Origin: Gemmatimonadota bacterium
Lineage (GTDB): Bacteria > Latescibacterota > UBA2968 > UBA8231
Assembly: GCA_002712305.1 (NCBI GenBank)
Contig: PATE01000144.1
Location: forward strand, 1 to 23,294
Length of the DNA stretch: 23,294 nt
Direction: 5' to 3'
Every line of letters starts with the position of its first letter. Position 1 is the first letter of the stretch. Below, piece after piece: positions 6,431 through 10,003 of the stretch. The notes beneath the pieces were generated by a model that saw nothing but the letters and a program-made list of their open reading frames with translations, made no database searches and had not been told where the DNA came from. The translations under genes were made by a program, and so were the position numbers.

Positions 6431-8050
6431 TCAATGGATGTGCAGGTCTGCTTTCGTCGTCGTGGACGGTCTCAACTCGACGGATCCCAGCCAGCCAAAC
6501 GGCTCCGCTGGACGAAAGGGTTCCACCTGGCCTGGATCGTGTTGGGCGTCACCATCCACGTCGATGAACCCGAAGATTCCATACTGACCAGGCACCAGCC
6601 TCGTCACCCTCAGCTCGGGCCCTGAGGTCTGGAAAGAATAGCGCTCTTTTGTCGTGGACGCGACGATTCGAAACCGCGCACTGTCGGACGATGAGGAGAT
6701 GGCACCCTCGAGGATGGGGCGATCGATCTCGGGAAGAACGAGGGTTTCGACGCGTATCGAATCGACCAACTCATTCCCCGCTCGGTCCGAAATGCCGGTC
6801 CACACGCCCTCAAGGATCGTAGACCCGACGACCAGAGGTTTCGTCAGTTCGTAGGCCAGATGCAGGCCGTCCCGCCAGCGCCAGCGTCCCTGGGGCACAC
6901 GCGTAGAGTCGTTCGTCTTCCATAGCCCGGGGGACGGCAACTGTGGTGACATCATCTCATCGAAGGTGAAGACGAACTCTTCCACTTCGATGGCATACTC
7001 CCCGGGTCGAATGTCGACCACCTTCGGCGGACGCGTATCCGCTCGTCTCGCCCCAGGAATCTCTGCGTCCGGCTCCCCCTCAAGGGAAACAGAAACACTA
7101 CCCACCCGGATGCGGAGGGGATAGGTTAGGTCGGACGATTGCCGGCCCGTTATCACATAGATCCGGTTTGGGTCGGTGGGCGCGTTGTGCATTCCCAGCA
7201 CCTCCAACCCATCGATCTCGACCTCTACTGACTCCGCATCGCATGCGGTGTCGAAGACCAACAAGAGTCGGTGTTCGTCCAGGGCCGTCAATTGCTGCAG
7301 AAGGGGCGCCACTACCGGTGGAGTCAGATACAGGTCGCCGGCAGCGGTTGAGTCGCTGCCATCGATCGTGACATCACCAGAGGCAAGGGCGCGGAGTTCT
7401 CTATCCCCGAGGGTCCGGTCCTTGTCCAGATCGTCAAATGCCAGGAGTCGGTATTTCGTAGTGGCCAGACGCTCGAAGTGAAAAACGCCATCGCTGCCGG
7501 TCTGCGTCGCGTAGGCGGGTGGATCATGACCGAGTCGGCCATTGAAGTATTCGAGATCGTACGCCAGAACGGAGATCCCGTGACGTGGCCCCTCCTCATC
7601 GACGACGCGCCCCATCAAAACACCGGTGTCGAGGGCGTCTCCGGTTGAGAAAGCGAACTGCTCCGATGCCTCCAATCGGTTCCCGCGACGATCCTTGGCG
7701 TCGGTGCCGATGGTGATGACGTAGGTACGGTCCTGGGCCAACCCCTGAGCCAACTTGAGCCGAAGCGTCGCTGACCCCTCCCAATCCATCTCAAAATCGG
7801 TCGCAGGTGCCACGAAGATAGCTTCCTGGGTCGTGCGTCGGTCCATGGGCTCCGAAAAATCGATCTGGATGGCCGCGTCTGTTGCCACCGACGTTTGATC
7901 TGTTGCCGGCTGCGTCGAGGCAATGCGTGGAGGCGTCTGATCGATGGGGCCACCGGTGGGTGCAGACACTTTGGCACAGGCGCCAAGAAGCAGCATGAGC
8001 AGCACGTGGTTGACCACACTGGGCCTGCAGGCGCTGGGGTCAGCTCTCAC
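6431..8050 (-). CDS. Outer-membrane-type lipoprotein with Big_5 Ig-like domains
   Basis: About 539 residues. A lipoprotein signal ends in L-L-L-G-A-C with Cys25 as the lipidation site, followed by P-T-G-G-P and T-P-P. Residues about 36-130 form a Big_5 (SbsA-type) Ig-like domain with the F-S-E-P-M-D motif. A carbohydrate-binding/CarboxypepD-like segment with a D-L-D-K-D turn follows, then a second Big_5-like module beginning D-T-R-P-P-K (F-T-F-D-E-M-M), and a C-terminal F-I-D-V-D-G-D segment. The arrangement is common in FCB-group lipoproteins of unknown role, probably structural or adhesive on the envelope. GTG 8050 is preferred because GGGGG lies 7 bases upstream and it gives a charged signal start; it overlaps the recombinase gene by 11 bases. 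GTG 8017 is the alternative. Confidence 0.8.
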   Translation of the reverse strand: MRADPSACRPSVVNHVLLMLLLGACAKVSAPTGGPIDQTPPRIASTQPATDQTSVATDAAIQIDFSEPMDRRTTQEAIFVAPATDFEMDWEGSATLRLKLAQGLAQDRTYVITIGTDAKDRRGNRLEASEQFAFSTGDALDTGVLMGRVVDEEGPRHGISVLAYDLEYFNGRLGHDPPAYATQTGSDGVFHFERLATTKYRLLAFDDLDKDRTLGDRELRALASGDVTIDGSDSTAAGDLYLTPPVVAPLLQQLTALDEHRLLLVFDTACDAESVEVEIDGLEVLGMHNAPTDPNRIYVITGRQSSDLTYPLRIRVGSVSVSLEGEPDAEIPGARRADTRPPKVVDIRPGEYAIEVEEFVFTFDEMMSPQLPSPGLWKTNDSTRVPQGRWRWRDGLHLAYELTKPLVVGSTILEGVWTGISDRAGNELVDSIRVETLVLPEIDRPILEGAISSSSDSARFRIVASTTKERYSFQTSGPELRVTRLVPGQYGIFGFIDVDGDAQHDPGQVEPFRPAEPFGWLGSVELRPSTTTKADLHIH

Positions 8051-9008
8051 TGTTTTCCCCCGCCCGTGGATGAGCCTGATCGTAGCGACGCTGCACTGCT
8101 TCCATATCGACGGTGGAGGGTGTCGGTGCCTTTGACCGGCCCATGAGTTTCCCCACAACAGCCGCGTCTGTCCCTGTCGACAACGAATGCTCGGCGAAGG
8201 CCTTGCGAAGCGCGGTGGCTCCACGGCGTGGACGATCGATTCCTGAAGTCAGACCGCGTGTACCTTCCAGGCGTCGCAGATATGCCTCGAACACGAGTTG
8301 TGCTGAACGGGTCCGTAGCCGGCGTCCTCGCGCTGTTACGAACAGATGCCCGGCGTCGATTCGCTGAATGTCTTGTTGGCTGAGTGTATCCGCCCGTGCC
8401 GTCAGGTATTTTGACAACACACTCACCGACTGAGGCCCGAGAGGAATCGAGCGCCGGCGGCTACCCTCAATATGGAGGTGCGCCTGGCTTGAGTCGATGT
8501 GAGAAACCCGCAGGGCCAGCACCTCTTCAAGTCGAAGGCCACACCCGTATAACATCTCCATTAGGGCGAGATCCCGAATCCCAGTGAAGGACGTCCGAGA
8601 GGGCATTCGCAGAAGGGCCTTGATCTGTGTCGGATTCAGGCCACTGTCGGACGAGGCCGCCGGGGGCGAGTGGAGACCTCGGATCTGCGACCCGTCGACC
8701 AGGCCCACGCGATGCAGAAACGAGTAGAGGGCCCGAATCGACGTCAGTTTCCTTGCCACCGTCCGCGGTCGAAAACCCTCATCCACCAAGTGTTGGAGAA
8801 ACTCCGCCAGCGTCGCCCCGTCCACGACACCGATGCTGGGCCCCGCGATCCGCGTGTGGAGGAAGCGGCACAGCTGCCGCAGATCCGCCGCATAGGCCTG
8901 ACGACTCCGGCGGGAGAGGGGCTCGGCATTGTGGAGATCACGAACGAAGGCCTCCACTCCCGCTTCGTATGCGGAGTTCAAGGTCAACAGACCGGTGGGG
9001 CGACTCAT
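8040..9008 (-). CDS. Degenerate XerC-like tyrosine recombinase
   Basis: About 322 residues with the full XerC/XerD layout: an N-terminal SAM-like core-binding domain (about 15-100) and a catalytic fold ending in Y-D-Q-A-H-P-R-A, as in XerC. Numbered from TTG 9014, the first catalytic arginine is kept (R161, Y-G-C-G-L-R-L-E-E) and so is the second (R270). However, the H-x-L-R-H box reads T-A-L-R-K, the L-G-H box reads M-G-R, the beta-hairpin lysine is not evident, and the segment that should carry I-Y-T-H with the nucleophilic tyrosine is shortened to P-T-P-S-T-V-D-M. The frame is open over its whole length. It is therefore a probable catalytically inactive paralogue. ATG 9008 is used; TTG 9014 is possible. 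It heads the lipoprotein/pilin-like/receiver run. Confidence 0.85.
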   Translation of the reverse strand: MSRPTGLLTLNSAYEAGVEAFVRDLHNAEPLSRRSRQAYAADLRQLCRFLHTRIAGPSIGVVDGATLAEFLQHLVDEGFRPRTVARKLTSIRALYSFLHRVGLVDGSQIRGLHSPPAASSDSGLNPTQIKALLRMPSRTSFTGIRDLALMEMLYGCGLRLEEVLALRVSHIDSSQAHLHIEGSRRRSIPLGPQSVSVLSKYLTARADTLSQQDIQRIDAGHLFVTARGRRLRTRSAQLVFEAYLRRLEGTRGLTSGIDRPRRGATALRKAFAEHSLSTGTDAAVVGKLMGRSKAPTPSTVDMEAVQRRYDQAHPRAGENSES

Positions 9009-9229
9009 CGTCAAATACTCATAGCCGAGGGTCGACCCGGTTGGCCCAGATGTCCGTCATGGGTGCCTTCACACGCAAGTGGTTACCGATGCAAGCATAT
9101 AAGACATGGCGTACAGAAGAATAAGGGGACCCGCGATGGCCTGCACTTCTTGACACTCTGTGAACCCGTCCGTTTCATAGTTTGTAGAGGAAGTTGGTCC
9201 GTTTTCATCCCAACTCACAGGCACATTCA
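9009..9229. promoter_or_regulatory. Divergent promoter region with map promoter
   Basis: Plus strand: a perfect TTGACA at 9150-9155, a 17-base spacer and TTTCAT at 9173-9178 (four of six to consensus), predicting a transcript start near 9185. That leaves a leader of about 45 bases to TTG 9230 and favours that start over TTG 9194. For the minus-strand recombinase gene only weak TATATG-like elements are visible. Confidence 0.5.
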
Positions 9230-10003
9230 TTGATCGCAAGACGCTCGCCCGACGAGATCGAGGCGATACGCGCCGCGTGTCAGATCGTCAGCCGCGTACA
9301 TGGAGCCCTGGCCGAACGCATCGCGCCTGGAGTATCGACAGCTATTCTCGACGAGTTGGCAGAGGAGACGATTCGATCTCACGGTGCAGACCCGGCATTC
9401 AAGGGATATCACGGATTCCCTGCTTCGATCTGTGCCTCCGTTAACGATGAAGCCGTTCACGGTTTCCCGCGACCCGATCCTTTGCAGGAAGGTGATGTGT
9501 TGTGCGTCGACGTGGGCGTGCGCCTCAACGGTTGGTTCGGCGATGGCGCCTTTACACTCGCCGTTGGTGAACTGGCAGCTGATGTTGAGGGCCTGCTACG
9601 CGCCACTCAGCAGGCCCTCGACGCTGGTGTGCGTGCGGCTGTAGCAGACAAACACCTGTCGGACATCTCCCATGCCGTCGAGACCATCGCCAACGAGGCC
9701 GGAGTCACGGTGATTCAGGAATACGGCGGACACGGAATCGGGCGCGAATTGCACGAAGAGCCCCACATCCCCAATCACGGAGCTCCGGGCCGGGGGCCCC
9801 GTCTGCAAGTTGGCCAGGTCATCGCTATTGAGCCGATCTTCAGTCTCGGAGCCCCCGAAGTGGTTGTCGACGAAGACGGATGGACCACACGTACGAAGGA
9901 TGGCAGCGCTGCGGCTCACTTCGAGCACACTGTGGCGATCACCAAAGAAGGGCCGCGGATGCTGACGGAGCCGCGGACGGCGACGATTGCTGCAGCAGGC
10001 TGA
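9230..10003 (+). CDS. map: Methionine aminopeptidase, type I
   Basis: About 257 residues. It removes the initiator methionine from nascent proteins in the cytoplasm and is normally essential. All five metal ligands are present: D94 (C-V-D-V-G), D105 (F-G-D-G-A), H168 (G-G-H-G-I-G), E201 (A-I-E-P) and E232 (H-F-E-H-T), plus substrate-binding H78. TTG 9230 gives the family-typical start M-I-A-R-R-S-P-D-E-I and has AGG 8 bases upstream; an in-frame TTG at 9194 would add 12 residues but leave almost no leader after the predicted promoter. The insertion-free length indicates the simple type Ia form. A PhnP-like hydrolase gene follows 12 bases later and is likely co-transcribed. Confidence 0.96.
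   Translation: MIARRSPDEIEAIRAACQIVSRVHGALAERIAPGVSTAILDELAEETIRSHGADPAFKGYHGFPASICASVNDEAVHGFPRPDPLQEGDVLCVDVGVRLNGWFGDGAFTLAVGELAADVEGLLRATQQALDAGVRAAVADKHLSDISHAVETIANEAGVTVIQEYGGHGIGRELHEEPHIPNHGAPGRGPRLQVGQVIAIEPIFSLGAPEVVVDEDGWTTRTKDGSAAAHFEHTVAITKEGPRMLTEPRTATIAAAG

Follow-up and report, generated by a model that had tools for sequence, protein, structure and literature searches.

XerC is among the most widely conserved bacterial recombinases, and XerC and XerD are the pair by which joined chromosomes are untangled in most bacteria. The C-terminal tail is the partner-docking element of Xer recombinases, and in Xer synapses these tails control the catalysis of the partner, the XerC tail controlling XerD (PMC5052618). 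The replacement of XerCD by a single recombinase is already known, as are dead repressors built on the recombinase fold. A recombinase gene adjacent to dif is a possible hallmark of the single-recombinase systems (PMC5357621), one of which, XerL of the Legionellales, had been overlooked before (PMC9765430). A recombinase fold that became a repressor has been published for MrpR of SPbeta (PMC10516654). In the literature searched, we found no report of a naturally dead XerC orthologue under selection, and none of a selected dead XerC beside a dif-linked third recombinase. The locus described here lies in a window of 23,294 nucleotides, the whole stretch of DNA that was analysed.

The xerC locus and its catalytic positions

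The xerC gene of the window and its two neighbours are organized as follows:

6431 to 8017, minus strand: gene of an Ig-like lipoprotein, directly downstream of xerC and its conserved neighbour in the family
8040 to 9014, minus strand: xerC orthologue, catalytically dead, 324 aa from TTG 9014 or 322 aa from ATG 9008, stop codon at 8040 to 8042
9194 to 10003, plus strand: methionine aminopeptidase-like gene (by resemblance), divergent neighbour, syntenic in genomes G001, G005 and G009

The order topA, xerC, Ig-like lipoprotein is found in g2, in two g5 genomes, in g4 and in g7, and in g1, the genus of the window, the lipoprotein gene lies downstream of xerC as elsewhere in the family. Since this neighbour has been kept, the locus is orthologous, and by tree and gene neighbourhood the window gene is the vertically inherited xerC of the family. 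In the sister genus g3, topA adjoins the lipoprotein gene with ~290 bp between them and no xerC (G003:C8, L226 3690-4030), a gap so short that xerC must have been deleted from the locus there. XerC and XerD were not found in G006, which is 73% complete and in which topA was not found either, and this genome was left out of the evidence.

The window protein comprises a Phage_int_SAM_1 domain (PF02899, E 6e-13) followed by a Phage_integrase domain (PF00589, E 6e-17). Among NCBIfam families it matches XerC TIGR02224 best (E 1e-45), with a score of 156 bits that falls far short of the curated cut-off of 335 bits. The following elements, all on the minus strand, were placed on the gene:

8685 to 8975, minus strand: N-terminal SAM-like DNA-binding domain, residues 14-110 (PF02899 spans residues 20-102)
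8532 to 8534, minus strand: retained Arg I (R161), by alignment
8445 to 8483, minus strand: beta2-beta3 hairpin, residues 178-190, with a gap in the alignment where the catalytic Lys of the GKG motif is missing
8214 to 8216, minus strand: HxxR His position, now Thr267, by alignment
8205 to 8207, minus strand: retained Arg II (R270), by alignment
8136 to 8138, minus strand: LGH His position, now Arg293 (MGR), by alignment
8106 to 8135, minus strand: SKAPTPSTVD, residues 294-303, standing where Xer proteins have the helix bearing the catalytic Tyr, by alignment and by a model devoid of this helix
8061 to 8105, minus strand: C-terminal tail MEAVQRRYDQAHPRA, residues 304-318, helix alpha-N, by conservation and by helix 304-314 of the model

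Alignment to XerC and XerD indicates that four of the six catalytic positions are lost, namely the hairpin Lys, both His and the Tyr, so that just the two Arg are left of the Arg-Lys-His-Arg-His plus Tyr set that characterizes a XerC recombinase. The original prediction, made from the letters of the window, had read most of this correctly: its T-A-L-R-K in place of HxLRH corresponds to Thr at residue 267, its M-G-R in place of LGH to Arg at residue 293, and the Tyr segment it described as shortened lacks three residues as well as a Tyr at the nucleophile column. The two active-site arginines it took to be kept are Arg161 and Arg270, and its Y-D-Q-A-H-P-R-A does match the XerC tail. The loss of the beta2-beta3 Lys comes in addition to those it listed. 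It had also considered that another Tyr, such as that of YDQAH, might sit in the active site, which does not apply here, as nearly all intact XerCs possess this Tyr together with the catalytic one. As a substitute nucleophile, the YDQAH Tyr was therefore rejected, being a residue of the tail in a protein whose other catalytic groups are gone except for the arginines. The window XerC is almost certainly non-catalytic.

An alignment-based AlphaFold (AF2) model of the window XerC (mean pLDDT 84.5) is predicted to adopt the two-domain tyrosine-recombinase fold. Structure comparison reports hits with the XerA-like 4a8e (Z 20.4, rmsd 10.0 over 258 residues), with XerH on difH (5jjv; Z 19.9, rmsd 3.4 over 274 residues) and with XerD-FtsK gamma (5dcf; Z 16.5, rmsd 3.0 over 169 residues). 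The structures of the phi3T repressor SroF (PDB 9rd5, 9rgl) return Z 14-16, below most Xer matches (Z 16-20). Residues 291-303 of the model are a coil where Xer proteins have the Tyr-bearing helix, and the tail helix 304-314 is present.

Descent and selection of the dead XerC

The same catalytic losses appear by alignment in all seven genomes of the genera g1 (G000, the genome of the window, and G001), g2 (a single genome) and g5 (four genomes), which answers the proposal, made with the original prediction, to look for orthologues sharing them. The orthologues of the window XerC are found at L008 (62% identity), L009-L011, L015 and L028, and a scan of genome contigs returned distant relatives alone. 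In G001, of the same genus, the segment that replaces the Tyr helix in the 62%-identical protein is of the same type, MGKSRAPTP---ASMNLEDVQRRYDQAHPR. Intact XerC is found in two genera of this family, g4 and g7, and in other families of the class.

G000 is a draft in 146 contigs, which might suggest a sequencing or assembly error, or a frameshift hidden in a normal xerC; the original prediction had named relatives with intact residues as a sign of this. Such relatives do exist in g4 and g7, but every g1, g2 and g5 genome has the losses, and because they are common to all of these, sequencing error is excluded. A frameshift or assembly error is ruled out by the six other assemblies with the same losses, including that of the 62%-identical protein of the same genus, and dN/dS (see below) indicates selection on the protein as read. 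The probability left to this explanation is negligible.

The six dead XerCs of full length (the seventh copy is not full-length) form one clade with support 96/98 in a tree built from 66 sequences of XerC, XerD and the third recombinase, where they lie inside the family XerC and beside the g4 XerC. Several branches of the dead group were flagged as long by the tree program, and branch order there is less certain than the grouping itself. The tree of Xer3, the third recombinase described below, independently groups g1, g2 and g5 (100/97). A single dead-XerC clade and a matching Xer3 grouping therefore point to one loss followed by vertical inheritance, and on these phylogenies the four catalytic positions are shown to have been lost in the ancestor of g1, g2 and g5.

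The reading frames are open in six of the dead-XerC genomes; in the seventh, G012, a run of N interrupts the gene, and what can be read of it is open too. The frames stay open down to 32% identity. In the conserved core, dN/dS is 0.133 for the G005/G009 pair of dead XerCs (bootstrap 0.069-0.217) and 0.147 for G000/G001, where dS is saturated. The corresponding values are 0.071 and 0.138 in two pairs of intact XerCs, and 0.125 in XerD from those g5 genomes. The broken frames or relaxed selection of a pseudogene are thus not observed. With intact XerC at comparable divergence as reference, the dead clade loses 0.38 of identity across its three catalytic segments and 0.06 outside them (Mann-Whitney p 3e-7; of 291 circular label shifts, 1 is as low). 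The drop is 0.04 in the N-domain (0.45 within the dead clade versus 0.49 in intact XerC) and 0.03 in the C-terminal tail (0.55 versus 0.58); over residues 291-303, identity is 22% among the dead XerCs versus 70% in intact XerC. Such a local loss of constraint is the pattern that would be expected for a protein still binding DNA and its partner and no longer cutting. The original prediction of a retained gene rather than a fresh pseudogene has thus held up, with seven orthologues in three genera forming one clade (96/98), dN/dS of 0.13 (0.07-0.22) and constraint released in the catalytic segments. The roles it suggested, DNA binding or that of a partner subunit, would fit the conserved N-terminal domain and the conserved C-terminal tail.

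Xer3, the dif-like sites and the drift of XerD

The third recombinase, Xer3, is encoded in G000 at C17:21624-22676 on the minus strand (L098:18918-19970). It occurs in 22 of the 25 genomes of the family, in copies 58-84% identical to that of G000, and is absent from the 35 class and phylum genomes sampled. Xer3 comprises about 320-360 aa, and its motifs TAHxxRHT and LRHKDLKTTMxYYE are conserved in every copy that is complete in this region, the active site being intact. It has no close relative in viral contigs, and the best phage matches listed share at most 28-29% identity with it. G000 contains no intact XerC: its other PF00589 matches are XerD, Xer3, a 423-aa phage-type integrase and two fragments of 96 and 73 aa. 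A 96-aa ORF of this genome (C78; L005 1501-1632) corresponds to a tyrosine recombinase in its C-terminal catalytic portion only and is probably an integrase remnant. In G015, which is 96% complete, there are exactly three Xer-like genes, XerD, Xer3 and the dead XerC.

G000 as a whole contains a single match to the family dif pattern, AGTGCACATCACGGGTATTATGTAAGCA, with its core at C17:21450-21471, 150 bp from the Xer3 stop, and none to the reversed control. The plain E. coli dif pattern gives matches near the control level. It had been proposed with the original prediction to search this genome for other xer genes and for dif, and XerD, Xer3 and this dif-like site are what was found. Dif-like sites flank Xer3 in g1, g2, g4, g5, g6 and g7, and matches of the family pattern adjoin it in G001, G002, G005 and G009; outside G000, some matches lie away from Xer3 too. 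The Xer3 gene is thus adjacent to putative dif sites, as defined by pattern. Paired dif-like sites ~50-75 bp apart are seen beside Xer3 in two dead-XerC genomes, G001 (L099, about 10503 and 10554) and G005 (L102, about 3720 and 3795), with a conserved TTATGTAAA-type arm and a variable arm on the XerC side.

Regarding the replication terminus, whose placement rests on sampled windows, the GC skew switches at Xer3 in the complete genomes G018 and G024 and in G020, G023 and G001, with no clear call in G015. In G001, which has a dead XerC, the skew is positive over the 100 kb left of Xer3 and negative over about 90 kb right of it. In the complete genome G018, Xer3 is located exactly at the skew flip, with four dif-like motifs around it scoring 15.2, the best dif-like score in 400 kb sampled elsewhere being 13.5. 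Four such motifs around Xer3 are a feature of g7 (L111 of G018; L113-L117); in L111 they are convergent, those left of Xer3 (6457+ and 9402+) being in forward and those right of it (12931- and 18497-) in reverse orientation.

The elements with which a XerC works are encoded in G000, namely XerD (C113), FtsK gamma (C105) and the 28-bp dif-like site (C17:21450), the active site of XerD being non-canonical. Among the XerD loci read in the family f1 (L044, L047-L063, L065-L068), the canonical Lys is replaced by Arg, by Glu or by a gap in 19 of 22 genomes; in the remaining three, which all belong to g4, a lysine stands one position away and may be the canonical one. The His of HxxR is Gln in the XerD of all six dead-XerC genomes examined, as well as in two of g4, and these dead-XerC genomes keep the Tyr, the LGH His and both Arg of XerD. 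Outside the family, the full Arg-Lys-His-Arg-His-Tyr set is found in nine out of nine XerDs read, and a tenth locus (G056), which has a XerC-like end, is also intact. In G024, Arg I of XerD is Gly.

The XerD of G000 (L001, C113) has a rewritten C-terminal tail, PSDLPAAAVDAPSLPTDPTPPRP, after the Tyr, the usual tail being found in no other frame. In g3, XerD ends just after the catalytic Tyr, devoid of the usual tail, and G001 and g5 keep it. The three recombinases also differ in their rate of divergence. XerC/XerD/Xer3 identities are similar in the intact genera, e.g. 80/75/79%, and amount to 63/61/84% within g1 and 43/50/73% between G000 and G005. In the dead clade, XerC and XerD thus diverge faster than Xer3, the best conserved of the three.

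Possible roles of the dead XerC and comparison with known systems

We lean, with somewhat better than even confidence, towards a reading in which Xer3 took over cutting at dif and the dead XerC was kept as a non-catalytic, DNA-binding partner of XerD. Xer3 would perform strand cutting at dif, either alone like XerS, XerH and XerL or paired with XerD, and the chemistry of XerC would no longer be needed; indeed, the loss would be tolerable because Xer3, with its intact active site, lies beside a dif-like site. The dead XerC would remain as a non-catalytic subunit on its dif half-site or on XerD, and its tail, docked in the XerD cleft, would, under FtsK, hold XerD in the dif complex or regulate it there. 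In favour of this reading count the losses common to the three genera, the local release of constraint, Xer3 at the skew switch beside a dif-like site, the drift of XerD within the family, the deletion of xerC in g3, FtsK gamma in G000, the control of XerD by the XerC tail (PMC5052618) and the Tyr-independent function of XerC in P. aeruginosa (PMC9431673). A partner subunit predicts that the XerD tail is dispensable where XerC cannot cut and that the XerC tail is kept where XerD may need control, in line with two cases, the XerD tails of G000 and g3; G001 and g5 keep theirs. Against this reading, the XerD of the dead clade still has its Tyr and may therefore still cut, the rewritten XerD tail weakens the idea of a tight two-way XerC-XerD contact in G000, XerC diverges faster in the dead clade, and most of the genomes are drafts, G000 being 91% complete. 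A more elaborate version, which we put forward tentatively and hold to be the less probable one, is a three-recombinase dif machine in which Xer3 cuts while the dead XerC and a catalytically weakened XerD stay on dif as a pair of pseudo-enzymes, giving an FtsK-gated control and a directionality that a lone recombinase would lack.

The dead XerC might instead have become a DNA-binding transcription regulator unrelated to dif, like MrpR/YopR of SPbeta. A catalytically dead tyrosine-recombinase repressor does exist (PMC10516654), the model of the window protein resembles SroF, though less than it resembles most Xer structures, and XerC of P. aeruginosa has a non-catalytic regulatory function (PMC9431673). 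However, a stand-alone repressor would need no XerD-docking tail, which is here as conserved as in intact XerC; the ancestral neighbour has been kept, XerD co-occurs, and neither a target site nor a regulon was found. We regard such a conversion as unlikely. If the XerCD pair were vestigial instead, Xer3 doing everything and XerC slowly decaying before its loss, this would agree with the absence of xerC from the g3 locus, with XerC and XerD outpacing Xer3 in divergence in the dead clade and with the family-wide erosion of the XerD active site. Yet neutral decay should lead to broken frames and to relaxation in every domain, whereas the frames remain open down to 32% identity, dN/dS (0.13-0.15) stays close to that of intact XerC and XerD, and constraint is lost around the active site only. 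Decay has a small probability and is by now largely refuted. Smaller still is that of a pair whose XerC is inert and whose XerD performs a single strand exchange unaided, the junction being resolved by replication or another nuclease and Xer3 forming a separate system. E. coli XerD does make the first exchange after contact with FtsK (PMC5052618), FtsK gamma is present, and the XerDs of dead-XerC genomes retain the Tyr, the LGH His and the two Arg; against it, the same XerDs lack the canonical Lys and have Gln for His, the dif-like site adjoins Xer3, and it is Xer3 that is best conserved in the clade.

Should the takeover by Xer3 with a retained XerC subunit be true, g1, g2 and g5 would represent a natural separation-of-function experiment for XerC, in which one could test which of its functions (half-site binding, control of XerD by the tail, regulation) outlast catalysis. 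These genera may also show an intermediate between the two-recombinase Xer system and single-recombinase systems such as XerS, XerH and XerL, and a possible series would start with a new recombinase at dif, followed by erosion of the XerD active site, death of XerC and finally its deletion as in g3.

As compared with the XerCD-dif-FtsK system, the window XerC is alike in its orthology, its xerC-lipoprotein neighbourhood (with topA upstream in the sister genera) and its two-domain fold, and its genome in having XerD, FtsK gamma and a dif-like site; it differs by lacking the Lys, both His and the Tyr, by scoring under the family cut-off and by the third recombinase at dif. We infer that it may act like a structural Xer subunit, being a XerC by descent that fails the catalytic definition. 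Xer3 resembles the recombinases of XerS/difSL, XerH/difH and XerL/dif (PMC5357621, PMC9765430) in its length, intact active site and terminus location, and its gene adjoins its dif-like site as those of XerS and XerH do. However, the Xer3 genomes differ from these systems in still carrying XerD, found in G000 and most genomes of the family, together with a dead or intact XerC, their dif-like sites have the E. coli-type look, and the activity of Xer3 is predicted; Xer3 is thus best described as a candidate single-recombinase Xer system that is not the only Xer of its genome. With MrpR/YopR and SroF (PMC10516654; PDB 9rd5, 9rgl), the window XerC shares a tyrosine-recombinase fold without catalysis, which has been demonstrated for MrpR. 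MrpR keeps the Tyr and the Lys and lacks other key residues, whereas the window XerC keeps both Arg and lacks the Lys, both His and the Tyr; MrpR and SroF are phage repressors, whereas the window gene occupies the chromosomal xerC locus and not a prophage. Lastly, the P. aeruginosa XerC (PMC9431673) is similar in having a role that does not need the catalytic Tyr, but it is a normal enzyme with a second role.
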